The translations under genes and the position numbers were made by a program. Positions 7,406 through 52,978 of a stretch of DNA of 64,000 bases are shown piece by piece. How positions within the stretch are numbered: the first letter of the stretch is position 1; every line of letters begins with the position of its first letter. Under the pieces are notes generated by a model, which saw nothing but the letters and a program-made list of their open reading frames with translations, was not told the origin of the DNA and did not search any database. Source of the stretch: Mycobacterium saskatchewanense (lineage in GTDB: Bacteria > Actinomycetota > Actinomycetes > Mycobacteriales > Mycobacteriaceae); NCBI RefSeq assembly GCF_010729105.1, contig NZ_AP022573.1, forward strand, positions 3,906,001 through 3,970,000. Direction: 5' to 3'.

Positions 7406-7993
7406 ATGGTCGCTCCAACGTTCGACGTCCGCGAGACCAGTCGGGCCACGACAGCACGGGCAATCCGTGCCGACGGCGAGTGTCTGCGCTATCGACTCGA
7501 GGTCGTGGCGGCCAGCGCCGCCGACGTCGTGGAGTCCGCCGGGGGGTGGCTGTACGACCGGGTGATGGCCGGCTGGGAGGTGACCGCGCTGCTGCCGCAC
7601 GGGGGCGACACCCGGCCGCTGCGCATTCTTGGCATCGCCGTCGCGGACCTGCCGTCACGCATCGGCGAGGAGGATCCGGCGAGGCATAGCCTCGCCGTCA
7701 GCGCCGAGGCATTTGCCGCCGACGCGGGCGTTCGCCGGCGAGTCCTCACTTCCCTCGACGCCCGGACGACCGAAGTGGCCCTGTGGGGCCACGCGGGTCA
7801 GGGCTGGCCGCTGGGCGTCCACCGGGTGACGGCCAAGGCGCAGCACGTGCTCAGCGCGGCGGCGCGCACCTACAAGGGTTACGCGCTCGCGGCCGCCGGC
7901 ATCTCCTGCGGCGCAGTGAATCCCATTGAGACGCTGCTGTGCGACATGACCACCCACTCACCGGCCGGCGCGCAGCTGATCCAGCTCGACTGA
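7406..7993 (+). CDS. Hypothetical protein of 195 residues
   Basis: I do not recognise this family. The product is soluble with no signal peptide or membrane segment. Its first half has alternating strands and helices (CLRYRLEVVAASAADVVESA, WEVTALLP, LRILGIAVADLP). The second half has EVALWGHAGQGWPLGVHRV and AARTYKGYALAAAG. ATG 7406 follows a GAGGA site; GTG 7391 is a less likely start. It lies between a CoA-transferase and an enolase-superfamily gene on the same strand, with an ~80-bp gap to the latter, so it may share their regulation. Confidence 0.6.
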   Translation: MVAPTFDVRETSRATTARAIRADGECLRYRLEVVAASAADVVESAGGWLYDRVMAGWEVTALLPHGGDTRPLRILGIAVADLPSRIGEEDPARHSLAVSAEAFAADAGVRRRVLTSLDARTTEVALWGHAGQGWPLGVHRVTAKAQHVLSAAARTYKGYALAAAGISCGAVNPIETLLCDMTTHSPAGAQLIQLD

Positions 7994-38629: not shown

Positions 38630-38668
38630 CAAGGATAGGCATACCTAAGCTAGGGTAGGCTAACTTTG
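38630..38668 (+). promoter_or_regulatory. Two adjoining IdeR-like iron boxes
   Basis: Against the 19-bp IdeR/DtxR consensus (TTAGGTTAGGCTAACCTAA), 38630-38648 matches 14 of 19 and 38650-38668 also matches 14 of 19. They lie end to end, 20 bp apart centre to centre. A -10-like TAACTT (38661-38666) falls in the second box, so bound IdeR with Fe2+ would block transcription of the PPE operon. Binding strength is not proven from sequence. Confidence 0.75.
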
Positions 38669-38693
38669 CTAGCTTTCGTGAAGGGGCCAGCCG

Positions 38694-38786
38694 ATGGCGG
38701 ACATTGCTTCTGTGTTGCTGGAGTCACCGGCTGACGCCACCTCCGTGATCGGCCTTCGCGCGCACCGAAAGGCCGGGCGGTCGTGA
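38694..38786 (+). CDS. Small leader ORF of 30 residues, coupled to the PPE gene
   Basis: ATG 38694 opens a frame for MADIASVLLESPADATSVIG then LRAHRKAGRS, ending TGA at 38784-38786. The stop overlaps the PPE start GTG 38783 (GTGA), the same coupling used between later genes. AAGGGG lies about eight bases upstream of the ATG. It follows the iron boxes directly. It resembles no family I recognise; it may be a leader that couples translation to the PPE gene, or a short real peptide. Confidence 0.45.
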   Translation: MADIASVLLESPADATSVIGLRAHRKAGRS

Positions 38787-40240
38787 GCTACCCGATGTGG
38801 TTCGCGGTTCCCCCGGAGGTGCATTCCACCCTGCTGTCCACCGGCGTGGGCCCCGGGCCGCTGCTGGCGGCGGCCGAGGCCTGGCATGCGCTTGCGGCGG
38901 AATACGGCTCCGCCGCAACGCAACTCACGGGTCTCCTCGCCAGCGTCGCCTGGGAGGGGCCAACGGTGGAGCGGTTTGTCGCCGCCCATCAACCGTTCCT
39001 TTCCTGGCTGACCCATGCCAGCGCGGTGGCCAGCGCCGCGGCGGCGGGACGTGAAACGGCCGCGGCGGGCTATGCGTCGGCGCTGGCGACCATGCCGACC
39101 CTGGCCGAACTCGCGGCCAACCACGTCGTCCACGCCGTCCTGCTCGCGACGAACTTCTTCGGGATCAACACCATCCCCATCGCCCTGAACGAGGCCGACT
39201 ACGCGCGGATGTGGGTTCAGGCCGCGACGACGATGAGTGCCTACCAAGGTCTGTCGGAGGAAAGCCTCGCCGCCACGCCCGCGACATCACCCGCACCGCA
39301 AATCCTCACCACGGCAGCCACGTCGGCCGCTGACAGCAGCTTCCCCGACCCGACGAAGGTGATCCTCCAGCTGTTCAGCGACTTCCTCAACACCCTGAGC
39401 AACATGGCGACCCAGTACCTGCCGGGGCCCTTGGGCAGCCTCGTCAGCCAGCTCCTGGACTCGTTCATCGCCCTGATGTCCACCCAGCTGTTCCTGATTC
39501 CCGCCTACTCGGTGATCGATCCGATCATCTATTTCGGCCCGTTCACCCCGCTGTTGACCCCCTTCCTGGCGTCCCTCGGGCTGGTCGGACTGGCCGGTCT
39601 GGCCGGCCTCGACGCGCTGGGCGATGCGGGAGGGGTGACCGCGGTGTCCAAGGTGCCCGACCAGCAGGTGTTGCCCGCTGTCACCGGGGTGACCGTGGCG
39701 GCCGCCACCCCCGGTGCGGGCGCCGGCACACCGGCTGGCGCGCCGACCGCGGCCCCCACCGCGCCGGCCGCCTCGGTGCCCGGACCCGGTGCCGCGCAGG
39801 TTTTCTACGCGGTCGACGGCGACCCCGGGGGTGAAGGATTCAGCCCCACCTCCACAGCCGGAGCCGCCGCCGCGGCTGTCGCCGCGATCGCCGCCCTCGC
39901 CGACAAGGCACCGGCGGACGCCGACCGGCTCAGGGCCAAGCGAAACGCCAGAGCGCGCCAGCGGGTCCGCAAGTACCGATTCGAATACCTGGACGAGGAC
40001 GGGCGCATGACGCTGCCCGTCGATCCGGTGGACGAGCGCGTCGCCGCCTCCGACGGCGGCTCGGGCCCGCTCGGGTTCGCGGGAACCGTCCCCGACCCGA
40101 CCGCGGCGCGCGCGCAAGGACTCACCCATCTCCACGGTCGTGAATTCGACGCGGCACCGGTGGCGCCGATGCTGCCGCAAAGCTGGGATGGCGGCGGCGA
40201 GCATGCGGCCGGGGCCGACGACAACGAAGCGGGCCGATGA
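38783..40240 (+). CDS. PPE family protein, PPE-PPW subfamily
   Basis: The 485-residue protein has the PPE motif at residues 10-12 (WFAVPPEVHSTLL) and a WEG turn at 57-59, the helical hairpin that pairs with PE proteins for ESX secretion. The C-terminal part carries GFAGT (near 431) and PMLPQSW (ending near 468), the PxxPxxW signature of the PPW subfamily, which includes iron- and heme-linked PPE36 and PPE37. No PE gene is beside it. It is the first large gene after the iron boxes, suggesting an outer-membrane role for the same small molecule. Confidence 0.88.
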   Translation: MSYPMWFAVPPEVHSTLLSTGVGPGPLLAAAEAWHALAAEYGSAATQLTGLLASVAWEGPTVERFVAAHQPFLSWLTHASAVASAAAAGRETAAAGYASALATMPTLAELAANHVVHAVLLATNFFGINTIPIALNEADYARMWVQAATTMSAYQGLSEESLAATPATSPAPQILTTAATSAADSSFPDPTKVILQLFSDFLNTLSNMATQYLPGPLGSLVSQLLDSFIALMSTQLFLIPAYSVIDPIIYFGPFTPLLTPFLASLGLVGLAGLAGLDALGDAGGVTAVSKVPDQQVLPAVTGVTVAAATPGAGAGTPAGAPTAAPTAPAASVPGPGAAQVFYAVDGDPGGEGFSPTSTAGAAAAAVAAIAALADKAPADADRLRAKRNARARQRVRKYRFEYLDEDGRMTLPVDPVDERVAASDGGSGPLGFAGTVPDPTAARAQGLTHLHGREFDAAPVAPMLPQSWDGGGEHAAGADDNEAGR

Positions 40241-41409
40241 AGGTCGTGGTGGCGGGCGGCGGTATCGGCGGGCTCGCGGTCGCAAGCGGACTGCAGCGAG
40301 CCGGTTGGGAGACGGTGGTGTTGGAGCGGGCGGCCGATCCCGAGCCGCCGCGCGCCGGATTGTCGTTGTTCGGGAACGGGTTTCGGGCCTTGGACGCACT
40401 GGGGCTCGGACCGGCCGTCCGCGCCATATGCGCCGACGGTCCTCCGTACCGGACGGCCGGCATCCGGACCCCCAGTGGGCGCTGGCTGGTGAGGTTCGCC
40501 CCAGCCGCCAGTGCGCGGCTGCGCGCAGTCGACCGCACCGAGCTGCACCACGTGTTGCTGGCCTCGCTGACCCCCGGCACCGTGCGCTGGGGCCAACGCG
40601 TGACCGGAGTGCGGCACGGTTCGGTCGAAGCCGAAGACGGCGCCCTCACCCGCGGTGCCGACCTGGTCGTCGGGGCCGACGGCATCCGCAGCCGCGTCCG
40701 GGCGAGCGTGCCACAGGACCGCCCCACGCGCCACAGTGGTTACGGCGTATGGCGTGCCGTCACGGCCATCCCGGTGCCCGTCGAAGTGGGCGGCGAGACA
40801 TGGGGCCCGGGGCAGCGGTTCGGAATTGTCCCGATGCGCGACGGGCGGGTCTACTGGTTCGCCGTTGTGGACCGCGCGCGCTGCGGCACGGGCGCCGCGG
40901 CCCTCCAGGAGATTCGCGACCGCTTCGACTCGTGGCACGAACCGATCGGCCGGTTGATCGATGCCACGGAGCCCGACGCCGTGAACTACGTCTCCAGTGA
41001 GGAACTCAGCGGTCCGCTATCGTCCTACGTCCACGGCCGCATCGTGCTCGTCGGCGATGCGGCGCACGCGATGAGCCCGAATCTCGGCCAAGGTGCGAAT
41101 CAAGCGCTCGAGGATGCCGCGACACTATGCGCGCTCCTGACGGCCGCGCCGGGGTCGGGCATCGAGGGGATCGACGCGGCGTTGCGACGTTACGACCGGA
41201 TCCGCCGTCCCCGCACCCAGCGCATCGCGCGCGAGTCGCGTGGCATCGGTGTCGCGGCGCAGTGGAGCCATCCGCTGCTGGTCCGGCTCCGGGAGGCGGG
41301 TATGTCGGCCGTTCCCGACCGGCTGTTCAGCCGCCGCACGACGCGCCTGCAGCACTGGGACCCGCCCCCAGCCAACCCCCATCGGGAGATACGGAGCCCC
41401 GCATGCTGA
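40237..41409 (+). CDS. FAD-dependent monooxygenase
   Basis: The 390-residue flavoprotein begins with a GGGIGG dinucleotide fold (residues 7-12), then VVGADGIRSRVRAS (DG motif) and VLVGDAAHAMSPNLGQGANQ (GD motif, 271-290). This is the PHBH/aromatic hydroxylase class, which uses NAD(P)H and O2. ATG 40237 overlaps the PPE stop (ATGA). It probably hydroxylates an aromatic or prenylated intermediate of the operon's product. Confidence 0.87.
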   Translation: MKVVVAGGGIGGLAVASGLQRAGWETVVLERAADPEPPRAGLSLFGNGFRALDALGLGPAVRAICADGPPYRTAGIRTPSGRWLVRFAPAASARLRAVDRTELHHVLLASLTPGTVRWGQRVTGVRHGSVEAEDGALTRGADLVVGADGIRSRVRASVPQDRPTRHSGYGVWRAVTAIPVPVEVGGETWGPGQRFGIVPMRDGRVYWFAVVDRARCGTGAAALQEIRDRFDSWHEPIGRLIDATEPDAVNYVSSEELSGPLSSYVHGRIVLVGDAAHAMSPNLGQGANQALEDAATLCALLTAAPGSGIEGIDAALRRYDRIRRPRTQRIARESRGIGVAAQWSHPLLVRLREAGMSAVPDRLFSRRTTRLQHWDPPPANPHREIRSPAC

Positions 41410-42086
41410 TCGAGATGACCGCCGTGAGCCGGACGTATCGCCGCGGGCGGGAACTGGTCAAAGCTGTCGACGACGTGACCCTGACATTCGGCAACGAGAA
41501 TCTTCTGGCGGTCACGGGGCCGTCGGGTTCGGGGAAGAGCACGCTCCTGCACCTCATCGGCGGTATCGATCGGCCGGATGAGGGCTCCATCAAAGTCGAC
41601 GGGGAAGAGCTGTCGGACAAGAGCGACGACGAGCAGTCCGAATACCGGCGGCGCAAAGTGTCCTTCATCTTCCAGTTCTTCAATCTGCTGCCCACGCTGA
41701 CCGCCTGGGAGAACGTGGCGATGCCCAGGGTCCTCGACGGGTCTTCGATGAAGCTGGCCAGAAAGGACGCGCACGACCTCCTGGACATGGTCGGTCTGGG
41801 CAACAGAACCGACCACAAGCCCTCCGAGCTGTCCGGGGGACAGATGCAACGGGTCGCCATCGCCCGCTCGCTGATCATGAAGCCCGGCGTCGTGCTGGCA
41901 GACGAGCCGACGGGGAACCTCGACTCGGAATCCGGCAGCAGCATTCTGGCGCTCCTCCGTCAGATCGCCGACGAGGGCCAAAGCTCGGTGATCATGGTGA
42001 CGCATGATCGGGAAATCGCCGCCGCGGCCGATCGTGAGATTGTGATGCGCGACGGCCGGGTCGTCGAAAGCCGGGACCGGGCATAG
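41403..42086 (+). CDS. ABC transporter ATPase, MacB/LolD type
   Basis: The 227-residue ATPase has Walker A GPSGSGKST (39-47), the Q-loop FQFFNLLPTLTAWENV, signature LSGGQMQRVAIARSL, Walker B VVLADEPTGNLD and the VTHD histidine. ATG 41403 overlaps the monooxygenase by seven bases. Together with the next gene it makes a MacB-like export pump. Confidence 0.92.
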   Translation: MLIEMTAVSRTYRRGRELVKAVDDVTLTFGNENLLAVTGPSGSGKSTLLHLIGGIDRPDEGSIKVDGEELSDKSDDEQSEYRRRKVSFIFQFFNLLPTLTAWENVAMPRVLDGSSMKLARKDAHDLLDMVGLGNRTDHKPSELSGGQMQRVAIARSLIMKPGVVLADEPTGNLDSESGSSILALLRQIADEGQSSVIMVTHDREIAAAADREIVMRDGRVVESRDRA

Positions 42087-42094
42087 GGATTCGG

Positions 42095-44599
42095 ATGATG
42101 ACCGCTGCGGGTGTCCGCTTCAAGATGCTGAACGTGCGGTACGCGCTGGCGCACTGGAAACGCTCGCTGAGCTGCGTGGTGGCCGTGATGATCGCCAGCG
42201 GACTGCTGGTGGCGATCGCCGGCATCTACAGCTCCTTGACCAAGTCGGTCGCAACGATGTCGGAGGACCTGTACGGCCGAGCGGCGTTCGAGGTCACCGG
42301 TGTGGCCGACAGCGGCCTGCCCGAAGCGCTGCTGGACGAGCTGCGCGGAGTGCACGGCGTGGCCGCCGCCGAACCGGTCGTGAAGGCGACGCTGAACGCA
42401 CCCCGCTCGGGGACAACGTTGTTGGGGGTCAGCCCCAACATTCGGGTGCTGAACAATCGGGTCGGCAACGAGCTCGTGCAGCAGGCCCAACGCGACACGT
42501 CCCACGGGTCGCTCGCCGACGGCGCGATCGCCGGGCCCGGGCTCGGGGTCGCGGCGGGCGGCACGGTCGACGTCGACTCCTTGCCCGTCAAGGTGGTCTT
42601 CGTGCCGAAGGGCGACCTCGCCGAGAAATACAACGCGGGTGACTACCTCATCGCGCCGCTGCAACTGGCGCAGCAACTCCTCCACCAAACCGGCCGGTTC
42701 AGTTCGGTTTTCATCGTCGCGGAGCCGGGTGCCGACACCCGGAACCTGGCCGCGGAGCTGGTGCGGGTGGTCGACCATCGGGCGGTGGTCGCCGAGCCGC
42801 AGTTCCGCGTCGCGCAGACCGACAACTCTGTGTCGCTGACCCGCGACGCCTTGCTCCTGGTCGGTTCGATCGCGCTGGTCGTCGCGATGTTCATCGTGTT
42901 CAACACCATGAACATGGCGGTGGTGCAACGCCGGCCGGTGATCGCCACCCTGCGGGCGCTCGGAGCGCGACGCGGCCAGCTGGCAAGGGACCTGCTGCTC
43001 GAGGTGGCGCTGATGGGATTTCTCGGTGGCTGCGTCGGCGCACCACTGGGGGCCGGGATGAGCTACCTCGCGATCAAGCGGCTGCCCCCGTTGCTGCTGC
43101 AGTCGGTGGACGTCAAGCCGGAATTCTTCTTTCCCAACGGCGCGATCGCCGTCGTGGTGGTGCTGGGGGTCGTCGCCTGCGTCGTGGGCGCCGTCTGGCC
43201 CGCGTTCGTCGTGTTCAACGCCTCACCCGCCTCGGCCATGCGACCGGCCGAGCTCGAAGCCCTGGGCGCCAGCCGGTCGAGGCCGAACTGGCTCGGCATG
43301 GTTGCCGGCGCTTCGCTGACGATAGCGGCGTTTGTCAGCGCGATGCGGCTGCACGACGAAAGAGCCTTCGGCGGCGGGGTTTTGGCGCTGGCCGGCGTGC
43401 TCGTGCTGTGCTGGGCCCTTGGGCCCGTGATCGTGGAGGCCAGCAGCCGGATCGCGGCCATGATGGGACCGAGCGGTCAGGTCAGCAGGTCGACGATGAC
43501 CGCGTCGGCAAAACGGACGTGGGCGAACGTGATGATCGTCGCGATCGCGGTCGCGTTGGGTAGCGTGACCAACGGGGTGCTGACGGATGTCGTGGACTCC
43601 ACGGGCGGTTTCTTCTCCTCCCTCGCGGGCGCCGACGTCTACCTGGCCGCGGCGCCGAAAGACGTTGTCCCCGTGAGCCCGTTGATCCCCAAGGGGGTGG
43701 ATCAGCAAGTCCGGCAGATCCCGGGGGTCGCCCGGGTCGTCCCGGTCCAGTACGCCTACGTCAACGTCGGCAGCGACCGGGTCTTGGTGGTGGGCGCCGA
43801 CCCGGGCACGGTCACGCCCGCCTTCTCCGCCATGAGTCCTGGGGTCCGCTCCCGGGTCGAGGCCGGGGACGGCGTCGTGGTGTCCCGCCAGCTTGCCCGC
43901 CGCCTGCATCGCGGCGAGGGGCAGACCCTGACCCTGAACACCCCGTCGGGACTGAAGACGGTGCAGATCCTGGGCGTGGTCGACTATCTCACCACCGAGC
44001 GCGGCATGATCGCGATGTCGCTGACCAACATGCGCACCTGGTTCCAACGCGACGGCGCCACCTATCTGGAGGTGCACGTCGCCGATCGCAACAAGGTGCC
44101 CGGTGTGCTGGACCGGGTCCAAAAGATTGCCGCCTCAACCGGATTGTTCGCCTTCGGCGGCCAGGACGCCGTCGACTCGGGGAAGGGCGCGGTCGCCCAG
44201 ATCGGATCCGTGGCCGTGTTCGTTCAGTGGATCGTGGCGCTGTTGGCGGCCATGGCCCTGTTCAACGCATTCATGATCTCCGTCATCGAACGCAGGAGGG
44301 AGATCGGCGTGTTGCGCGCGATGGGCGCTTCCCGGCGCTACATCACCAAATCGATTCTCGTCGAGTCGAGCAGCGTCGCCCTGGTGGGCGGCCTTCTCGG
44401 GCTGCTGTCCAGCCTCGTCGTCCACCGGCTGGGCACGCTGATCATGAGCACCGTCACGGCCATGACGGTGCGGTTCGCGCTGTCACCCCTTGACCTGCTC
44501 AGCGTCGTGGTGGCGGTGGCCTTGTGCTGGAGCGGTGCCCTGCTGCCCGCATCACGTGCCGCCAAGGCGGCGATCGTGGACGCGTTGGAAGTGGAGTAG
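42095..44599 (+). CDS. Two-module FtsX/MacB-type ABC permease
   Basis: The 834-residue membrane protein has two repeats, each an N-terminal helix, a periplasmic MacB-PCD domain and three helices ending in an FtsX core. The first FtsX stretch has IALVVAMFIVFNTMNMAVVQ followed by RRPVIATLRALGARRGQLAR; the second has FNAFMISVIERRREIGVLRA followed by MGASRRYITK. This ten-helix layout is typical of actinobacterial exporters that use a separate LolD-like ATPase, here encoded eight bases upstream. Substrate unknown. Confidence 0.9.
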   Translation: MMTAAGVRFKMLNVRYALAHWKRSLSCVVAVMIASGLLVAIAGIYSSLTKSVATMSEDLYGRAAFEVTGVADSGLPEALLDELRGVHGVAAAEPVVKATLNAPRSGTTLLGVSPNIRVLNNRVGNELVQQAQRDTSHGSLADGAIAGPGLGVAAGGTVDVDSLPVKVVFVPKGDLAEKYNAGDYLIAPLQLAQQLLHQTGRFSSVFIVAEPGADTRNLAAELVRVVDHRAVVAEPQFRVAQTDNSVSLTRDALLLVGSIALVVAMFIVFNTMNMAVVQRRPVIATLRALGARRGQLARDLLLEVALMGFLGGCVGAPLGAGMSYLAIKRLPPLLLQSVDVKPEFFFPNGAIAVVVVLGVVACVVGAVWPAFVVFNASPASAMRPAELEALGASRSRPNWLGMVAGASLTIAAFVSAMRLHDERAFGGGVLALAGVLVLCWALGPVIVEASSRIAAMMGPSGQVSRSTMTASAKRTWANVMIVAIAVALGSVTNGVLTDVVDSTGGFFSSLAGADVYLAAAPKDVVPVSPLIPKGVDQQVRQIPGVARVVPVQYAYVNVGSDRVLVVGADPGTVTPAFSAMSPGVRSRVEAGDGVVVSRQLARRLHRGEGQTLTLNTPSGLKTVQILGVVDYLTTERGMIAMSLTNMRTWFQRDGATYLEVHVADRNKVPGVLDRVQKIAASTGLFAFGGQDAVDSGKGAVAQIGSVAVFVQWIVALLAAMALFNAFMISVIERRREIGVLRAMGASRRYITKSILVESSSVALVGGLLGLLSSLVVHRLGTLIMSTVTAMTVRFALSPLDLLSVVVAVALCWSGALLPASRAAKAAIVDALEVE

Positions 44600-44601
44600 C
44601 C

Positions 44602-45693
44602 GTGGCGAAGCGCGAACTGACCGCACCGGTGACGGCGGCGGCCCCCGAATCGCTGGCCGAATTCCTGTGCAGGCCCGGCGAGCAACGGTTGATCTGGGTG
44701 CGCAGCAGTCCGGGCCTCCCGGCGCCCGTGGCATGGCGTCTCGCGCGCTTCGTGGCGTTCTCGCGGCCGCGAACCTGCGTGCCCGGAATGCTGGCCTTCT
44801 ATTTCGCGAGCGTCGTCAGCGGGCAGGTTCCGCTGCGGGCCCTGATCGTGGGCATGGTGGTCTCCTACCACATCGGCGCGATCGCCAATTTGTACAACAT
44901 GTACACCGACATCGTCGAGGACAACGAGAACATTCCGTCCAGGGTGTTCGAGCTCGGCCGGTACGGCCGAGACCGCCTGCTGCGCGACACCCACCTGCTG
45001 ACCGCGGCCGTCTTCGTGTCGTCGCTGCTGGTGAACCCCTACTTCGCGGGCTTGACGCTGCTGGCCCTCGTTGGCTGCCAACAATATTCGTTTCGGCCGT
45101 TTCGGATGAAGGCGCGGCCCCGCGTCGGGATCCTGTACTTCGCCAACGCGGTGGCATATCCCTACCTGAGCGCGGCCCTGGCCGGCGACGGGAAGCTGCA
45201 TGCCTTCCTCGAGCCCGAGTACCGCGCGCTGGCGATCTACCTGTTCGTATGGTTCTGCGCCAAGGGCCTCATCAAGAACGTGCCCGACTACGACGGCGAC
45301 AAGCGGGTGAACGTGACGACGTCGGCGACGCTGAGCGCGAGCAGGCGCAACGCGGCGCTGGTCGCCGCGACGGCGACCGTGCTGGTCTACGCCGCCGTCG
45401 CCGTTCCCGTCGCTCTCGACGTCGTCGGGCGCAAGTTCCTGCTGGCCCTGGTGTGGCTTCCCGTGGCGTGCTTTCAGGGGTGGCGGCTGGTGCGTGCGGG
45501 TGAGGAGAAGTCACGCAACGACATGCTGCGCGACGACATGTTCGTATCCGTCGGATACCTTTCCACGCTCATCTTGGTCGAAAGGCCGTCGCTGTCGTCC
45601 GCCTCGGTGGTGGCCGCGGGGATCGCCATCATGGTGTTATCGGACCAGCTGGGGCTCGACACCCGAAGAGCCGAAGATTTCGGTGCGCCATGA
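44602..45693 (+). CDS. UbiA-family prenyltransferase
   Basis: The 363-residue integral membrane enzyme shows the first aspartate motif NMYTDIVED (N99, D103, D107; NxxxDxxxD) and the second KNVPDYDGDKRVNVTT (D229, D233), which bind Mg2+ and prenyl diphosphate. At least seven hydrophobic helices surround them. It transfers an isoprenoid chain to an acceptor. GTG 44602 starts two bases after the permease stop, and the gene overlaps the aminotransferase by four. Confidence 0.87.
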   Translation: MAKRELTAPVTAAAPESLAEFLCRPGEQRLIWVRSSPGLPAPVAWRLARFVAFSRPRTCVPGMLAFYFASVVSGQVPLRALIVGMVVSYHIGAIANLYNMYTDIVEDNENIPSRVFELGRYGRDRLLRDTHLLTAAVFVSSLLVNPYFAGLTLLALVGCQQYSFRPFRMKARPRVGILYFANAVAYPYLSAALAGDGKLHAFLEPEYRALAIYLFVWFCAKGLIKNVPDYDGDKRVNVTTSATLSASRRNAALVAATATVLVYAAVAVPVALDVVGRKFLLALVWLPVACFQGWRLVRAGEEKSRNDMLRDDMFVSVGYLSTLILVERPSLSSASVVAAGIAIMVLSDQLGLDTRRAEDFGAP

Positions 45694-46769
45694 GGACTCA
45701 CCGAATAGTGCTGCACGACAGCGGGACCCGCCCGTCCCGCCCGGAGTTCGATCTGTCCCGCAACGAGTTGCACCTCGACCCGCTTCCCGAGGTGCGCAAG
45801 ATCCTCGAGTCGAGCGCCGACACCCTCAGTCGCTACCCTCAGGACCACCTTGTCGCGGCGCTGACCGAGCGGATCGCCGCGCTGCACGGGGTGCCGTTGG
45901 ATCGGGTGGTCGTCGGCCCGGGCAGCATCGGTGTGCTGGACGCCCTGCTGCACGCCGACGGCGGACCCGCCGGGTCCACGGTGTTTGCCACCCCCACCTT
46001 TGACGAGTACGCGGTGCTCGTCGCCCGAGCGGGCGGCGTTCCCGTCGGGGTTGCGGGTGACCCCGTGGGCAAGCAGTCGCTCGACGGCATCCGGGCCCGC
46101 GTCGACTCGTCGACGCGCTATGTGATCGTCGCGGCGCCGCACAACCCCAGCGGCGCCGCGGTCAGCCTGGCCGAACTGAGGCATCTGCGGCTGGCCTTGC
46201 CGGACACCGCGGTGCTCGTCGTCGACGGCGCTTACGCCGAGTTCGACGAGACCGCCCGCCCGGATGCCGTGCGGCGCATGGTCAGCGGCCCGCGGCCGGT
46301 GGTGGTCCTGCGCAGTTTCTCCAAGGCCCACGGGCTGGCCGGCCTGCGGATCGGTTACGGGGTCTTCAGCTGCGCGGCGCTGGCGGCGCGGGTCAGGTCC
46401 GCCGTCCCGATGTTCGCGGTGAACTCGATCGCGCTGACCGCCGCGGCGGAATCGTTGCGGCATCAACAGCGACTGCGGGAACGGGTGTCCCGGGTGATCG
46501 AGAACCGCAACCGCCTGGAAGCGGCTCTGCTCCGGTACGGCCTGTACTCGGGGATCGCCTCGCAGGGCAATTTCGTGTGGTTGCCCACCCGGGATTCCCG
46601 GCGGCTGTTCGCGCATGCCCTCGGTGACGGCATCCTCGTGCGCGAGTACCCCGGCTGGGGCGTCCGGATCACCGTCGGTTCGGACGAATCGGTGAATGCC
46701 GTCCGCAAGTCGCTGGCGACCTTCGTGGCCGGCACACGCGGCCGCGCCCGCAGCGGTGCCGATGCATAA
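45690..46769 (+). CDS. PLP-dependent aminotransferase, HisC-like (fold type I)
   Basis: The 359-residue enzyme shows LSRNELHLDPLPEV, VAAPHNPSGAAVS for the conserved asparagine, VVDGAYAEFDE, and RSFSKAHGLAGLRIGYGV with the PLP lysine at 212, plus GVRITVGSDESV with the carboxylate-binding arginine. This is the histidinol-phosphate/aromatic aminotransferase branch. Because histidine biosynthesis has its own gene elsewhere, a specialised role in the operon's pathway is likelier. ATG 45690 overlaps the prior stop. Confidence 0.87.
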   Translation: MRTHRIVLHDSGTRPSRPEFDLSRNELHLDPLPEVRKILESSADTLSRYPQDHLVAALTERIAALHGVPLDRVVVGPGSIGVLDALLHADGGPAGSTVFATPTFDEYAVLVARAGGVPVGVAGDPVGKQSLDGIRARVDSSTRYVIVAAPHNPSGAAVSLAELRHLRLALPDTAVLVVDGAYAEFDETARPDAVRRMVSGPRPVVVLRSFSKAHGLAGLRIGYGVFSCAALAARVRSAVPMFAVNSIALTAAAESLRHQQRLRERVSRVIENRNRLEAALLRYGLYSGIASQGNFVWLPTRDSRRLFAHALGDGILVREYPGWGVRITVGSDESVNAVRKSLATFVAGTRGRARSGADA

Positions 46770-49700
46770 CCGGCACCTGCTCTCCAATGCCATTGGGCGG
46801 CAGCGGTTCGCCGACCAGTTGGTGGATCATCTGATCAGCCTGGGGGTCGAGTACCTCTTCGGGATGCCGGCGGAGTCGGTGAATTCGCTGATGCACGCCG
46901 CGAGTCGGCGCAGCGAAATACGGGTCGTCAGCGCCCGGCACGAGACCGCGGCCGCGCTGATGGCGGTCGGTTACGCCCGCTCCTCCGGGCGATTGGGCGT
47001 GTGCTTCGGAACGGCGGGACCGGGCGCCACCAATCTGGTGGCCGGCGCCTACGAGGCCTTCGTCGGGCGGGTGCCGCTGCTCGCCATCAGCGGTCAGGTT
47101 CCGCTGGCGGCCATGGGCACGGGCTCTTTCCAGGAAATCGACTCGGAGAGCCTGTTCCGGCCCTGCACCTCCCTGTCCGTACAGATCGACGGCCCAAGCC
47201 AATTCGAGCGGTTGGCCCGGTGCTGCGTGCAGGCCGTGCACGAGTCCACCGCGTGCCACGTGGCTATTCCCGGTGACGTGCTGTACGCCCCCATCGGTGC
47301 GCACGGCTCGCGCGTGTTCGTTCCCGACCCGCCGAACCCGGCGGCCGCGGCCAAGGAAGAGATCAGCGCGATCCTGGATTTCCTGGGTTCCGGGGACCTT
47401 GCCATAGTGCTCTCCTGCGCGAGCGGGCCCCAGCGCGTTCTGGCCCGGCAGCTTTCCGAGCGCCTGGACTGTCCGCTGCACACCGCGGAGGGACGAGACG
47501 CCGGCGTGATAGGTGCCGCGGACGTGTTGGTGGTGGGCCGGGCGAGTCCCTTGCTGGCGCAGCGTGTCCGCGGGCACGCCAACCTGCTTGAGCTCACCGA
47601 CCGGCGGTTCGCGTCCGGGTCCATGCCATACATCAGGCAGATCGTCTGCGACGTGGAGGCAACGCTTGCGACGGTCCTCGGCTTCGTCCCCGCGCAGCCC
47701 GGGTCTTTGCCGGAGCGCAGCGCCGCGCGCGAAACCGACGACGGCGCAGCCGATTCGGTTCGCTGGCGCGTCTACACCGACCTGGACGGCGCCGACGGAC
47801 TACTCCCGCAAGGCATCGCGCTTGACGACGCGGTCGTGTCGAGCGTGGCCCGCATCCCGGGCGCGGCGCTGCCGCTGGCCATCGGCGGGGCCCTGGGCGG
47901 CCACGGGGATCCGCCGAGCCTGGTCGTGACGGACCACGCGCAGTTAGGCCAGTTCATCGCGGACGTGTCCACCCTGGCCAGCCTCGGCGGCGACGTGCTG
48001 GTGGTCTGCCGGGTGGGCGATGGTGAAAGCCTCTCGGGGGCAAGCCAACTCGGTGCCGCGATGTCGGTGCCGGCGGTCCGCGCGGAAAACGGCGCGGACC
48101 TGTCCCGGCTGTTCCGCCGCCTCGCCGAGAACGGGGGCCCCGGGATTGTCACCGTGCGGGGCGCCCCCGCGGCAAGCCCCGAGGCACGGCCCCTCCGGCC
48201 CGGTGAGCGGGCCTTGGCCGAGCGGCTGGCCGCCTGCCTGGCCGTCCCGGTCCAGCTGAGCGAATTCTGCGCTCCGCTGCTGCCCTGTTTCACGACAGCG
48301 CAGCGCAGCGCCAACGCCCAGGCGCCCTCGATGAACGCGTCCGCGCTGCGGAAATGCGGGAACGCCCGCGCGGGCACGGTGGCCGCGACCGGCGCCGCAC
48401 TTCTGCTGCAGCTGAACGGGATCTACGACGCGGCGTTGGATAACGCCAGGATTCTCGTGGCGACCGTCGAGGCCCGGGACTGGGCACTCGACGCCCGCGG
48501 GCTGCTCGACGAAGTGAGCGTCGCGCGCTACACGGTCGACGATCCGGCGACGGCGGCCGCCACGGTGCGGCAGGCCTGCGCGGCCGCCGGCGCGCCCGGC
48601 GGGGGTGTGGTGCATCTGCACGTGGGGTCGCGCGCGCTGGACGCGGAGTGGACGCCCGATACGGCCGACCCGGGGGCGGCGGGGCCGCGACCGGCCGGGG
48701 CCCGCCATGGTCAACCCCCGAGCGAATCCGCGCTGTCGGCGGCGATCGCCGCCCTGCGCGACGCCGACCGAGTCGCCATCGTCGCGGGCCGGGGGGCCGC
48801 GGGGTGCTCGGATCTGCTGGTGGAACTGTCCGAGATCCTTTGTTGCCCGGTGTATCTGACGATGGGCGGGGACTCGGTGCTCGCGGATCCGGGCCTGCGG
48901 GCGCGGGGGCGTATCGGCGGTTCCGGGGACCTCCGGGCGTTTCACGAGGTGGCCCGGGCGGACGTGCTGCTGTTGATCGGCGTGTCCAACAGGGGCTCGG
49001 CCTTCGACCTGGCGGCGGCCGGGCGGACGATCGCCGTCAACCTCGACCCGCACGCGATGCTGCGGCTCTCCCGGCGCGATATCTGCGTGCTGGCCGACGC
49101 CGCGCCGGCGGTGGAGGCGATGGTCGCCGCGCTGCGCGCCGCCCCGCCGGCGGGTGCCTTCCGGCGCCGCGCGGCGCGAGTGGGAACCGTTCCACGGATC
49201 GCGCGACGGCGGGGGGACAACGGTCGGCTGCGCGCGTCGCGGCTCACCCGTGTGATCGACGAGGAACTCCGCCGGTTCGACGGCGCCTCCACGGTGTGCG
49301 CGGACGTCGGCGTCAACACGCTGTGGGTATACCGCCACATCACGTCGATGACCCGCAGCGTCTGGTCCGCGTCGTTCGGCACGATGGGTTTCGCGGTTCC
49401 CGCGGCGATCGCCGTGGCCAGAAACTCCGTCCCGAGTTCCAGCGAGCCGGCGCTGGTGGTGGCCGTGGCCGGGGACGGCGGCACCTCGGTGACATTGAGT
49501 CAGATCCGGTCGTCGGCCGGCCTCGCGACGCCGATCGTGTTCGTCGTCGTGAACAACCTGGCGCTCGCCGCGATCAAGTTCGAAAGCGAGATCATGGGAT
49601 GGCCGGACCGCGCGTCGTCCATCCCGGACATCAACTTCGCGAAATACGCCGCGTCCCTGGGGATCAGATCGCGCAGGGTCGACACCCCGCGCGGTTTCCG

Positions 49701-49923
49701 CGCCGCCTTCCAGGAGGCGATCAGCGAACCCCGCCCCTTCCTGATCGACGCCCGCTGCGTCGTCAACGACGCCCCGATCCAGGCCGGTAGGTCCGACTGG
49801 CGCCAGGTCGCGGGTTTTCTCCTCGCCTGGTCACAGGAGGGGCGCGACGCGGTCGGCTCGTTTCGCGAAGTCGTGCGCGCGGTCGTGATCGGCAAGCTCT
49901 ACGAGAAGGGGCTCTCGTGGTAG
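46762..49923 (+). CDS. Fused tandem thiamine-diphosphate enzyme (one intact, one degenerate half-set)
   Basis: The 1053-residue protein is about twice the usual ThDP-enzyme length. Order seen: PYR1 with SARHETAAALMAVGYA (Glu61 catalytic); a middle domain; a PP-like domain (about 335-480) in which GDG is replaced by TDH (390-392) and NN by CR (416-417); a degenerate PYR-like domain (NARAGTVAATGAALLLQLNG) lacking the glutamate; a second middle domain with VAIVAGRGAAG; and an intact PP2 with GDGG (904-907) and NN (931-932). A single active site from Glu61 and PP2 is inferred. Expected chemistry is 2-oxoacid decarboxylation or carboligation. Confidence 0.8.
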   Translation: MHNRHLLSNAIGRQRFADQLVDHLISLGVEYLFGMPAESVNSLMHAASRRSEIRVVSARHETAAALMAVGYARSSGRLGVCFGTAGPGATNLVAGAYEAFVGRVPLLAISGQVPLAAMGTGSFQEIDSESLFRPCTSLSVQIDGPSQFERLARCCVQAVHESTACHVAIPGDVLYAPIGAHGSRVFVPDPPNPAAAAKEEISAILDFLGSGDLAIVLSCASGPQRVLARQLSERLDCPLHTAEGRDAGVIGAADVLVVGRASPLLAQRVRGHANLLELTDRRFASGSMPYIRQIVCDVEATLATVLGFVPAQPGSLPERSAARETDDGAADSVRWRVYTDLDGADGLLPQGIALDDAVVSSVARIPGAALPLAIGGALGGHGDPPSLVVTDHAQLGQFIADVSTLASLGGDVLVVCRVGDGESLSGASQLGAAMSVPAVRAENGADLSRLFRRLAENGGPGIVTVRGAPAASPEARPLRPGERALAERLAACLAVPVQLSEFCAPLLPCFTTAQRSANAQAPSMNASALRKCGNARAGTVAATGAALLLQLNGIYDAALDNARILVATVEARDWALDARGLLDEVSVARYTVDDPATAAATVRQACAAAGAPGGGVVHLHVGSRALDAEWTPDTADPGAAGPRPAGARHGQPPSESALSAAIAALRDADRVAIVAGRGAAGCSDLLVELSEILCCPVYLTMGGDSVLADPGLRARGRIGGSGDLRAFHEVARADVLLLIGVSNRGSAFDLAAAGRTIAVNLDPHAMLRLSRRDICVLADAAPAVEAMVAALRAAPPAGAFRRRAARVGTVPRIARRRGDNGRLRASRLTRVIDEELRRFDGASTVCADVGVNTLWVYRHITSMTRSVWSASFGTMGFAVPAAIAVARNSVPSSSEPALVVAVAGDGGTSVTLSQIRSSAGLATPIVFVVVNNLALAAIKFESEIMGWPDRASSIPDINFAKYAASLGIRSRRVDTPRGFRAAFQEAISEPRPFLIDARCVVNDAPIQAGRSDWRQVAGFLLAWSQEGRDAVGSFREVVRAVVIGKLYEKGLSW

Positions 49924-49990
49924 CCGCACATCCGCGCCCCTCCGTCGCCCCAATCCAGCCCAATCCGGGCGAAGAAAGGATGATGGTCCA

Positions 49991-51553
49991 TTGACCGCCG
50001 CAGACGAACCAATCTTGGAATCCCACGACGCGCAAAGTGGTTGCCCGGCAACCGGGCTTGCGCGCACATTCCGCCTCACTGCGGCCCCGCCACCCCGGGA
50101 GTCCCGGTGGTCCGCGGGCCGGCTCAGCGCCCTCGGCGCGCTGCGGGAAGACCCGCTGTGGCCCACCCGGCTCTCGGTGGCAACGTCCCTGGGTGCCGCG
50201 CGCGGATTCGGCCGGCCGGCGCCGCTGCCCCCCGGCCCCAAGGGCCTTCCCGTCGTCGGCTCCTTCTTCCAGCTCCGCCGGGATCCATTTCGGGTCATGA
50301 GCCGCGGCGCGGCCGAATACGGCGACATGTTCCGGATCCCGATGCCGCTCCTGGACATGGTCGCGGTCACGCACCCGGACCTGCTGCACGAATTCATGGA
50401 CGATCCGGACGGGCGATACAGCCGATACAGCCCGGTGGGTCCGCTGTTGGGAATCATCGGGGCGAACAGCATCATGCTCGAGGGGCCGAAGCTGCGGGAA
50501 CGCCGGCGGATGCTCATGCCGATGTTCACACGCAGACACCTGGTGACGATGGCCGACATCTTCTGCGCCGAGTTCGACGAACGCCTCGGCCGGTGGTCGA
50601 ACTGGGCCGGCACGGGACGGCCGGTGGATCTGCAGTACGAGATCTCGCTGACGACGCTGAAGGTCTACCTGCGGGCGCTGTTCTCGACCTCGATCACCGA
50701 TCGGAACCTGCGTCAGCTGGACGCCGACATGCGGGCGATCACGGGCCTGCTGGGCCTTACCACGCTGATGGTGCCCTTCCCCAATCTGCTTCCGCGGCAT
50801 GGACGATCCAGCCTGGTGCCGGCCCTGCTCCGGATCTACCGGCTTGTCGGGCGTCTGATCAGGGACCGGGAGGCCCACCCGCTCGACACCCCCGACTTCC
50901 TCGATACGTTGCTCGGCGCCCGGTACGAGGACGGTTCACCCATTTCCAGGCCGGACCTCGCGGCGGAGATCGTCGGTCTGCTAGGCGGCGCCTACGACCC
51001 GACGGGCGCGGCGTTGACCTGGACGGTCGCGCTGCTGCTGGGCAACCCCGACCAGCTGGCGAAACTGCGGGAGGAGATCGCCGCGCTGGGCGGCGCGCTG
51101 CCCACCTACGACGACGTCTCCCGGCTGGAGTGGGCCAAGGCCTGCTTCGACGAGGCGCAGCGGATGCAGGGGCATCCGTTCTTCCCGAGGTTCTGCATGG
51201 CGGACAACGCGCTCGGCGGCTACCGGCTACCCAAGTACACCCTGGTGGGTGCGTGCATGTCGGTGGTGCACCGCGATCCGCGCTGGTGGCCCGATCCGGA
51301 ACGGTACGAACCCGGCCGGTTCATCGATCCGGCGCAGGTACGGGCGCGTCCGCGACTCGCGTTCATGCCGTTCAGTTCGGGGCAGCACTTCTGCCTGGGC
51401 ACCACGATGGCGTACATGGCCGCCCAGTTCTTCCTGACCATCCTCTTTCAGCGCTATCGGCTGGCCCTGCCGCACGGGTGGCGGCCGGAGCCCCGATTCA
51501 CGTTCTCGGTAACCGTCAAAGGCGGCCTGCCCGTGACCTTGTCGCATGTGTGA
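49991..51553 (+). CDS. Cytochrome P450
   Basis: The 520-residue P450 has a proline-rich hinge (PLPPGPKGLPVVGSF), an I-helix with LGGAYDPTGAALTW (331-344), the EAQR ExxR motif, ERYEPGRF, and the heme loop MPFSSGQHFCLGTT with Cys468. The I-helix has a proline between the acidic residue and threonine, unlike the usual AGxDT. The N-terminus is not a membrane anchor. TTG 49991 follows GAAAGGA. It closes the operon and probably oxidises the prenylated product. Confidence 0.88.
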   Translation: MTAADEPILESHDAQSGCPATGLARTFRLTAAPPPRESRWSAGRLSALGALREDPLWPTRLSVATSLGAARGFGRPAPLPPGPKGLPVVGSFFQLRRDPFRVMSRGAAEYGDMFRIPMPLLDMVAVTHPDLLHEFMDDPDGRYSRYSPVGPLLGIIGANSIMLEGPKLRERRRMLMPMFTRRHLVTMADIFCAEFDERLGRWSNWAGTGRPVDLQYEISLTTLKVYLRALFSTSITDRNLRQLDADMRAITGLLGLTTLMVPFPNLLPRHGRSSLVPALLRIYRLVGRLIRDREAHPLDTPDFLDTLLGARYEDGSPISRPDLAAEIVGLLGGAYDPTGAALTWTVALLLGNPDQLAKLREEIAALGGALPTYDDVSRLEWAKACFDEAQRMQGHPFFPRFCMADNALGGYRLPKYTLVGACMSVVHRDPRWWPDPERYEPGRFIDPAQVRARPRLAFMPFSSGQHFCLGTTMAYMAAQFFLTILFQRYRLALPHGWRPEPRFTFSVTVKGGLPVTLSHV

Positions 51554-51585: not shown

Positions 51586-52152
51586 GTGCCCAAGATCAGT
51601 GCCGCATCGGTGGAGGAGCACCGCGAACAGGTCCAGCGGCGCGTCTTCGACGCCTTCGCCACGCTGATGGGCGAGCACAGCTTCGACGCGATCACGATGG
51701 CCAAACTCGCGGCCCGGGCCGGCATCGGACGAACGGCGATCTACCACCACTTCGCCGACAAGGAAGCGGTTGTCGTGGCGTTTGCATCGCACGAGACCAG
51801 TCGCTACATCGACGGGCTGCGCGCCGGTCTGGCCGATGTCGACGACCCGGTCGAGCGCCTCGCGATCTACATCCGGCACCAGCTCAACGCCGGCCAGCAA
51901 TTCCACATGGGCCTTGGCCCGCAGCTGTACGGCGCCCTTTCGCAGGACACGATGCGGGCCATCCGGGAGCACGTGACCGCCGTCGAGGATGTCTTGCGGG
52001 AAATCCTGGCCGACGGTGTGGCCACGGGACAGTTCACCATCGAGGACGAGGTGGCCACCATGTCGCTGATCCACGCCTGTTTGGCGCCGCGCGACCTGCC
52101 GCCCGCGATCGTCGAGCGGTTTGTGCTGCGCGCGCTCGGCGCGGCGCCGTAG
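51586..52152 (+). CDS. TetR-family regulator, likely repressor of the heme oxygenase gene
   Basis: The 188-residue protein has the TetR helix-turn-helix (ITMAKLAARAGIGRTAIYHH, then FADKEAVVVAF) and a C-terminal ligand domain. GTG 51586 follows a TAGAGT element (51574-51579) by six bases, consistent with a leaderless message. The gene directly precedes a double palindromic site and the heme oxygenase gene, so it likely controls heme breakdown or shares an effector with the P450 operon. Confidence 0.85.
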   Translation: MPKISAASVEEHREQVQRRVFDAFATLMGEHSFDAITMAKLAARAGIGRTAIYHHFADKEAVVVAFASHETSRYIDGLRAGLADVDDPVERLAIYIRHQLNAGQQFHMGLGPQLYGALSQDTMRAIREHVTAVEDVLREILADGVATGQFTIEDEVATMSLIHACLAPRDLPPAIVERFVLRALGAAP

Positions 52153-52184
52153 CAGGCGGGGCGGGCACCGGCCGTAGTATGTTT

Positions 52185-52220
52185 CTGACAGGTTGTCAGT
52201 ATCATTTTGACATGTTGTCA
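52185..52220 (+). promoter_or_regulatory. Double TGACA-N3-TGTCA operator before the heme oxygenase gene
   Basis: CTGACA-GGT-TGTCAG (52185-52199) and TGACA-TGT-TGTCA (52208-52220) are two inverted repeats of the same half-site, 22 bp centre to centre. A TAGTAT -10-like element lies at 52175-52180, so both copies cover the probable start of transcription. The TetR gene upstream is the obvious binder. Confidence 0.75.
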
Positions 52221-52249
52221 CCGAATCCGCCGACCTCTTGGAGCCGCAG

Positions 52250-52978
52250 ATGCCGTTGAACGCCACCGAATCCGCCCGCCGGGTTTCCGTCGCGATGAGG
52301 GAAGGCTCGGCCGCGGAGCACGCCGCCGCGGAGCGCTCGCCGTTCGTGTCCGAACTGGTTGCCGGACGGGTCAACGAGCGGGGCTATGCCGACTACCTGC
52401 GGCGGTTGCGCGTCGTCTACGCCGCCCTCGAGGACGCCGTCCGGTCCCATCGCGACGACCCGATGGTTTCGGCTGTGTACGACCCGGCGCTCGAACGCCT
52501 GGCGGCAATCGACGCCGACCTGGACCATTGGGCGCCCGGCGCGGGGCGGGCCGTCGAATCACCCGCCGCCGAGGCATACCGTGACCGAATCGCCGGCGCC
52601 GAGTGGGGCGGCGCCCTGGTCGCGCACCACTACACGCGCTATCTGGGTGACCTCTCGGGCGGCCAGGTGATCGGCAAGGTTCTCGACCGCACGTTCGGGC
52701 TCGGCGGTGCCGGCCTCGCGTTCTACCGGTTCCCGATGCGTCCGAAACCGTACAAGGACGCCTACCGCTCCCGGCTCGACGGCCTCACCCTGGACGCCGA
52801 CGAGTTCGACCGCGCCGTCGACGAGGTGAAGGCCGCCTTCACGCTCAACCAGGCGCTGTTCGACGAGCTTGCCGACAATCTCCCGGCCTATCGCCGATCG
52901 TCACCGGTGCGGGTAGGGCCCGGGGCGCCCGACGGCTACTCGACCGGCCTCAGCTCGTCGCCACACGTGCAGCGGTAG
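52250..52978 (+). CDS. Biliverdin-producing heme oxygenase, HmuO/HO-1 type
   Basis: The 242-residue enzyme carries [17 protein letters not shown] with the proximal heme ligand His24 (compare His20 in HmuO) and [19 protein letters not shown], the distal helix GDLSGG of canonical heme oxygenases. It opens heme to biliverdin, iron and CO with reductase electrons. ATG 52250 has GGAG six bases upstream. M. tuberculosis is known for MhuD, an unrelated fold, so this is a different heme-degrading route. The 3' end overlaps mymT by 43 bp on the opposite strand. Confidence 0.9.

Follow-up and report, generated by a model that had tools for sequence, protein, structure and literature searches.

A mycobacterial operon behind IdeR-like boxes encodes a ZigE-like enzyme and a predicted route to prenylated 4-quinolones

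The 64,000-nucleotide stretch of the Mycobacterium saskatchewanense genome considered here (the window; positions 3,906,001–3,970,000 on a single contig of 6,008,916 bp) carries an operon in which eight genes run in one direction, preceded by two adjoining IdeR-like iron boxes (Table 1). By its sequence, the fused double thiamine diphosphate (ThDP) enzyme of this operon belongs to the ZigE family. Since its gene stands beside those of a UbiA prenyltransferase and an aminotransferase, the most likely product of the operon is a 2-prenyl-4-quinolone derived from tryptophan, a conclusion held with moderate confidence. That the operon is repressed by IdeR and both makes and exports a prenylated 4-quinolone is probable, though by no means assured. 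The originally predicted small molecule, modified by prenylation and oxidation and then exported, is thus supported, and its class can be narrowed: the ThDP enzyme belongs to the type that yields 4-quinolones by expansion of an indole ring.

That chemistry is known from the zig cluster of Micromonospora zingiberis (Kakumu and Helfrich, June 2026; PMC13307353), and only since that date. There, ZigE expands a prenylated indole-3-pyruvate to a 4-quinolone, and it is for zig only that the requirement for UbiA and the methyltransferase and ThDP steps have been shown. By our own reading of that report, the prenyl group ends on quinolone C2 and the β-carbon becomes C3.

A pattern scan of GTDB species genomes (84,980 by the description of the tool) returned 25 loci, 19 of which (L004–L022) are of the fused-ThDP kind: three from mycobacteria, eight from Nocardia, three from Actinomadura, and single loci from Actinocrinis, Amycolatopsis, Longimycelium, Streptomyces and Micromonospora. 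The Micromonospora locus, L021, comes from PLAI 1-1, the M. zingiberis strain in which zig was described. Six loci with single-size enzymes (L023–L028), from Sulfurospirillum, Methanohalophilus and other archaea, were left out before any counts were made, and L001–L003, L051–L054, L056 and L058 are repeats of other loci. The 22 loci compared are therefore L004–L022, the window, and the mycobacterial loci L055 and L057; six are mycobacterial and 16 are not. A UbiA gene adjoins the ThDP gene in all 22, and some cytochrome P450 is present within every fetched stretch. The original prediction had called for a check that the genes co-occur in other genomes, and they do: ABC ATPase, FtsX permease, UbiA, aminotransferase, ThDP enzyme and P450 are found together in 6/6 mycobacterial loci, spread over three genomic sites (the window; L005 and L006; L055 and L057 with L004, which has the same flank on its P450 side). 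The UbiA gene is rare in the genus, with matches in five of 396 genomes drawn from it at E 1e-30, the window's own genome counted. In one locus (L055:6751-9024, genome G045) the ThDP frame is broken and open for residues 1–702 only, from either sequencing error or decay.

The window ThDP enzyme is composed of two fused acetolactate-synthase-like subunits, the architecture that marks a zig-type pathway. Its N-terminal half (residues 1–470) and C-terminal half (471–1053) each align along a 584-amino acid pyruvate oxidase (E 4e-94 and 9.9e-92; hhalign, forced global alignment), and by motif one active site is intact while the other is degenerate. Glu61, GDGG 904–907 and Asn932 are invariant in 23/23 aligned members, including the enzyme of L021 (P0099). 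Among solved structures it comes closest to pyruvate oxidases, acetolactate synthases and the HKA synthases CsmA and BbmA; a second structural comparison covered mainly residues 11–575. Given such relatives, the enzyme might perform acyloin chemistry of a carbazole- or acetolactate-like kind on an aromatic keto acid, leaving a prenylated hydroxyketone or indole as the product. This is judged unlikely in light of the fused double architecture that it has in common with ZigE, the UbiA gene adjoining in every locus, and the invariant motif residues. The view, formed by eye, that the catalytic Glu of the C-terminal half had turned into Gln while zig-type members retain it was withdrawn, hhalign placing Ala at that position of the window protein and Gln next to it. 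Beside the lost Glu, again by eye, members from Actinomadura, Amycolatopsis and Micromonospora read Pro-Glu or similar, and mycobacterial and many Nocardia members read Ala-Gln or Thr-Gln.

The zig and mycobacterial loci have in common UbiA, a fused two-subunit ThDP enzyme, an aminotransferase and a P450. The aminotransferase is of class III in L021, whereas that of the window is of class I/II, with a putative phenylalanine aminotransferase (4r2n) as its best solved relative; we infer tryptophan as its substrate and indole-3-pyruvate as its product. UbiA would then attach to indole C2 a polyprenyl chain drawn from the cellular pool, and the ZigE-like enzyme would open the ring and close it again, losing the keto acid, to give the 2-prenyl-4-quinolone. 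Unlike zig, the mycobacterial loci have no match to a ZigD-type methyltransferase, to a polyprenyl synthase or to the putative ZigF, and they add a flavin monooxygenase (FMO; 5/6 loci, four of them orthologous), an FtsX-type ABC exporter, sometimes a PPE protein, and iron boxes. The putative ZigF (L021:13323-14066) was assigned by size and place, and as a query for a Pyr4-like terpene cyclase it had no tblastn match in the mycobacterial loci. Seven Nocardia loci are also without the terpene cyclase and polyprenyl synthase.

A ZigD/UbiE-type methyltransferase is encoded in 15/15 loci without an FtsX exporter and in 0/7 with one, the seven being the six mycobacterial loci and L009 of Nocardia transvalensis. 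Put by lineage, it is present in 15/16 non-mycobacterial and 0/6 mycobacterial loci (E 1e-8). A dedicated ZigD-type copy elsewhere was not seen in the five operon genomes searched; each has one UbiE-like match (E 1e-8), as do two of three operon-free genomes, the third having two, and the lone match is probably MenG of menaquinone synthesis. The methyltransferase determines the C3 substituent of the quinolone, so that in the mycobacterial loci C3 would stay open. The loci would offer a natural series, C3-methyl versus C3-open, for probing the purpose of quinolone substitution. The FtsX permease of the window is 76–79% identical to those of the five other mycobacterial loci and 35% identical to that of N. 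transvalensis, and the exporter would take the lipophilic product from the membrane. The N. transvalensis locus is fuller, with a polyprenyl synthase, FMO, ABC, FtsX, aminotransferase, UbiA, ThDP enzyme, second FAD enzyme (609 amino acids) and P450, and it has no box of 13/19 or better.

The open C3, or alternatively the ring nitrogen, would be available to the FMO. Its best solved relative is tropone 2-monooxygenase (8rqh, E 1.3e-39), a name that implies hydroxylation beside a ring ketone. A likeness is proposed to the Pseudomonas quinolone signal (PQS) system of Pseudomonas aeruginosa: in both, an FMO would act on a 2-substituted 4-quinolone, and PQS binds Fe(III). The ring of PQS is built from anthranilate and a fatty acid, whereas here it would come from tryptophan and an isoprenoid by way of the aminotransferase, UbiA and ThDP enzyme. 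According to two reports (PMC7731028, PMC11768086), PqsH converts 2-heptyl-4-hydroxyquinoline (HHQ) to PQS by hydroxylation, PqsL gives rise to the N-oxide HQNO, and iron chelation has been described for PQS and 2-nonyl-4-hydroxyquinoline. By analogy, the FMO is proposed to place a hydroxyl group on quinolone C3 or N and so yield an iron chelator resembling PQS; either hydroxyl would create an iron-binding group, the bidentate one of PQS-type or N-hydroxy quinolones.

The P450 is proposed to oxidise the prenyl chain. Its nearest solved relative, 3dbg, is named a putative P450 and is presumably CYP170A1. A predicted natural ThDP–P450 fusion (P0060), 63% and 72% identical to the window ThDP enzyme and P450, respectively, ties the P450 to the pathway. 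In the I-helix, where Thr usually follows the acid, the window P450 reads AYDPT and the fusion AYDPS; the Pro after the acid is possibly the sign of an unusual oxygen-activation site.

The two boxes are as the original prediction described them: box 1 (38630–38648, CAAGGATAGGCATACCTAA) and box 2 (38650–38668, CTAGGGTAGGCTAACTTTG) each match the IdeR consensus at 14/19. A degenerate core allowing up to three mismatches has eight matches in the window, seven of them within 38631–38667, compared to a mean of 1.06 and a largest count of 5 in 100 shuffles. The boxes are conserved in the mycobacterial loci. With the window counted, a box of at least 14/19 is present at the operon promoter in 6/6, and L005 has the same 20-bp tandem with scores of 17/19 and 16/19. 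In the 172,227 bases of these six loci there are 10 clusters at or above 14/19, and 10/10 lie before the operon or the P450; palindromes permuted 300 times gave a mean of 0.71 clusters with a maximum of 17. At 13/19, 11/13 clusters are so placed (permuted mean 6.6, standard deviation 7.3, maximum 71). In the window and L005 the P450 gene continues the operon and lacks a separate box. In L004, L006, L055 and L057 (4/6) it is inverted and does have one, three at 14/19 and that of L004 at 13/19. A box that turns up where an inverted P450 would need a promoter is hard to explain by chance. Upon iron shortage, IdeR would be released and the operon switched on. The IdeR-type control originally predicted is supported by the boxes at the promoters of all six loci, and the operon would be expected to respond to iron.

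Elsewhere in the genome, the genes near nine other box-bearing regions were named. Three of the nine carry a bacterioferritin (TIGR00754, 249 bits, above the cut-off), an EccA (TIGR03922, above the cut-off) and an MbtA-like adenylate ligase (TIGR02275, below the cut-off), which we take to be IdeR targets in M. tuberculosis. One further region (L067, G000:C1:2018500-2023500) has a 14/19 box-like site about 400 bp before the gene of a StlD/DarB-family β-ketosynthase of the dialkylresorcinol type that scores below the family cut-offs. In M. asiaticum, a YaaA-type peroxide stress gene (L004:13754-14512) is divergent from the P450 and its box; YaaA is iron-related in Escherichia coli.

A number of observations weigh against the proposed pathway and its iron control. 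The window ThDP enzyme is about 33% identical to P0099, and the window UbiA is 39% identical to its counterpart in L021. A polyprenyl synthase had no match in the mycobacterial loci by tblastn. The orthologous FMO occurs in 4/6 mycobacterial loci (the window, L004, L055 and L057); L005 has another FMO (35%), and L006 has none nearby, its best genome match (34%) being on another contig. The next relatives of the FMO, at about 50% identity (e.g., from Gordonia and Tsukamurella), have no quinolone-specific name among the 120 matches listed of 3,769, and the notion of a proven quinolone-specific FMO was rejected on account of these generic names. In L004, L055 and L057 the box is downstream of the FMO gene and there is none before it (best 10/19). 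The PPE gene is present in 3/6 mycobacterial loci. A similar box pattern at up to three mismatches is not enriched across the genome (33+26 matches versus 69+76 for a reversed control), so a lone box means little and was not accepted as significant; the weight of the box evidence lies in tandem placement and conservation. The remaining box regions of the genome, other than the first three named above, are the unrelated DarB-like ketosynthase (1/9) and regions with no named family (5/9). The absence of the methyltransferase with the presence of the exporter may reflect perhaps one or two events only. On a ThDP tree of 16/22 loci (L015, L016, L019, L020, L022 and L055 were excluded for being near-duplicate, split, short, broken or not cleanly called), this combination takes two changes; the well supported branches allow one, which occurs in 2% of bootstrap trees. 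Lastly, a 14/19 box is missing from the cluster promoter in all 16 non-mycobacterial loci. Iron control thus looks to have been added in mycobacteria rather than being part of the ancestral pathway, and a joint arrival of the two was rejected. The near-identical Nocardia loci L007, L014 and L015 have a 13/19 site at 7689, just before UbiA, and a 14/19 match near 18.85 kb, off the core.

A tentative extension of the proposed pathway is a PQS-like metallophore that partitions into membranes, namely a 4-quinolone with a prenyl chain and a 3-hydroxy or N-hydroxy group, controlled by IdeR, exported by the FtsX-type system and taken up as its Fe(III) complex (or with a heme partner), in some species with the PPE-PPW protein, the C3-methylating enzyme having been swapped for a hydroxylase. 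The prenyl quinolone might instead be an antibacterial or respiratory-chain inhibitor resembling zigralones, aurachins or the Pseudonocardia compounds, serving as a weapon or menaquinone mimic under iron starvation and not as an iron binder. Minimum inhibitory concentrations of 2 µg/mL against Staphylococcus aureus are reported for zigralones 2 and 3 (PMC13307353), Pseudonocardia geranylquinolones are described as potent against Helicobacter pylori (PMC7731028), and neither the FMO nor the PPE gene is constant among the loci. The iron boxes at 6/6 loci and the absence of a C3-methylating enzyme that 15/16 non-mycobacterial loci have kept argue the other way, and an inhibitor is considered a doubtful reading.

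Several known systems bear on the proposed metallophore. The geranylated quinolones of Pseudonocardia sp. CL38489 and the aurachins are prenylated 4-quinolones like the proposed product; the quinolone-type aurachins carry their prenyl group at C3, unlike the C2 prenyl proposed here, and half of the CL38489 geranylated quinolones are without a C3 methyl (PMC7731028). Seven Nocardia clusters (L007, L008, L012–L016) have the same core order of UbiA, aminotransferase and ThDP enzyme with a P450, but differ by a UbiE-type methyltransferase after the ThDP gene, no FtsX or FMO match and no 14/19 box at the cluster. Mycobactin and carboxymycobactin are products of non-ribosomal peptide synthetases (NRPS) and polyketide synthases (PKS) under IdeR-box control. 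The present operon is alike in its boxes but has no NRPS or PKS among its eight genes by Pfam, in agreement with the original prediction. If true, the operon as proposed would represent a second chemical class in mycobacterial iron handling, by a route without NRPS or PKS, and would link a PPE-PPW protein to a small-molecule pathway. To our knowledge there is no endogenous quinolone from mycobacteria. Searches of the open PubMed Central literature found no report of this operon, nothing on the subject among the titles and abstracts listed for mycobacteria with meroterpenoids and quinolones, and nothing on prenyl quinolones with Nocardia and thiamine.

Table 1. Coordinates of the operon, its iron boxes and the genes directly 3' of it (window positions).
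Feature	Coordinates	Strand	Details
Two adjoining IdeR-like iron boxes	38630..38668	+	14/19 each, start-to-start 20 bp
Possible leader ORF, 30 codons	38694..38786	+	4-nt overlap with PPE start
PPE protein, PPE-PPW subfamily	38783..40240	+	Pfam PF00823, PF18878; GFAGT and PMLPQSW motifs
Group A flavin monooxygenase (FMO)	40237..41409	+	PF01494 (FAD_binding_3); GGGIGG, GADG, GDAAH motifs
ATP-binding cassette (ABC) exporter ATPase, LolD/MacB/FtsE kind	41403..42086	+	Start ATG 41403, revised from 41127
FtsX-type ABC exporter permease, two FtsX domains	42095..44599	+	PF02687, two stretches
UbiA prenyltransferase, ZigC-like, 363 aa	44602..45693	+	PF01040; NxxxDxxxD and DxxxD motifs
HisC-like aromatic aminotransferase, class I/II	45690..46769	+	PF00155
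Fused double ThDP enzyme, ZigE-like, 1,053 aa	46762..49923	+	ThDP N, M and C domains
Cytochrome P450	49991..51553	+	PF00067; FSSGQHFCLG heme motif
TetR-type regulator beside heme oxygenase	51586..52152	+	78% identical to L006:14654-15220, TetR by Pfam
Heme oxygenase, just 3' of operon	52250..52978	+	PF01126

The eight large genes of 38630..51553, their single direction and their overlapping or near junctions agree with the original prediction, the reading frames and Pfam domains being found at the coordinates it gave. Three starts (ABC ATPase, UbiA and ThDP enzyme) were moved according to relatives and sequence, resulting in tighter gene junctions: overlaps of 4 (PPE/FMO), 7 (FMO/ABC), 4 (UbiA/aminotransferase) and 8 nt (aminotransferase/ThDP), with remaining gaps of 8, 2 and 67 nt. 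The leader ORF that had also been predicted is present, but no similar frame was seen by eye before the PPE gene of two PPE-bearing relatives, and it was rejected as a conserved element.

The operon was also predicted to sit where bglS is found, and a comparison of its flanks with eight genomes agrees. A large ORF lies between the same flanks in 6/8, of 726–801 amino acids in five and 1,092 in L117 (as called by the script), and in 3/3 genomes tested it is a GH3 gene (bglS). The window operon thus occupies the place of this gene, and a GH3 search of its own genome, which lacked a positive control, gave no match.

The PPE protein has the PPE-PPW C-terminus (PF18878, E 3.9e-15). GFxGT and PxxPxxW motifs are found in the window and L005 proteins, and that of L006 has PMMPGTW only. 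Since the PPE gene occurs in only half of the mycobacterial loci it is not a core part, which weakens the predicted aid of this protein to uptake or export as a member of the set. PMC7058343 connects PPE36, PPE37 and PPE62 of M. tuberculosis with the use of heme. The TetR and heme oxygenase genes lie directly 3' of the window operon; in L006, there as a second copy, they flank the P450. Taken with these genes, the PPE-PPW protein could suggest that the operon serves heme use through a small-molecule hemophore, that is, a heme-binding quinolone. This is improbable: three of the six loci have no PPE gene, and heme oxygenase is common in the genus (119/392 genomes), stands beside the operon in 2/6 loci, and is elsewhere in the genome in G045, G235 and G381. 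On the same counts the pair was rejected as a fixed part of the operon and is likely a separate unit. The surroundings of heme oxygenase, up to 14 kb per region, were compared in 14 of the 119 genomes; none of the 14 regions had a match to the S33, DUF2786, 37861, O-methyltransferase or ilvD genes of the window, and TetR had a match in 6/14. Within 51586–52978 of the window, the palindromes TGACAGGTTGTCA and TGACATGTTGTCA lie between the TetR and heme oxygenase genes and are plausible TetR operators.

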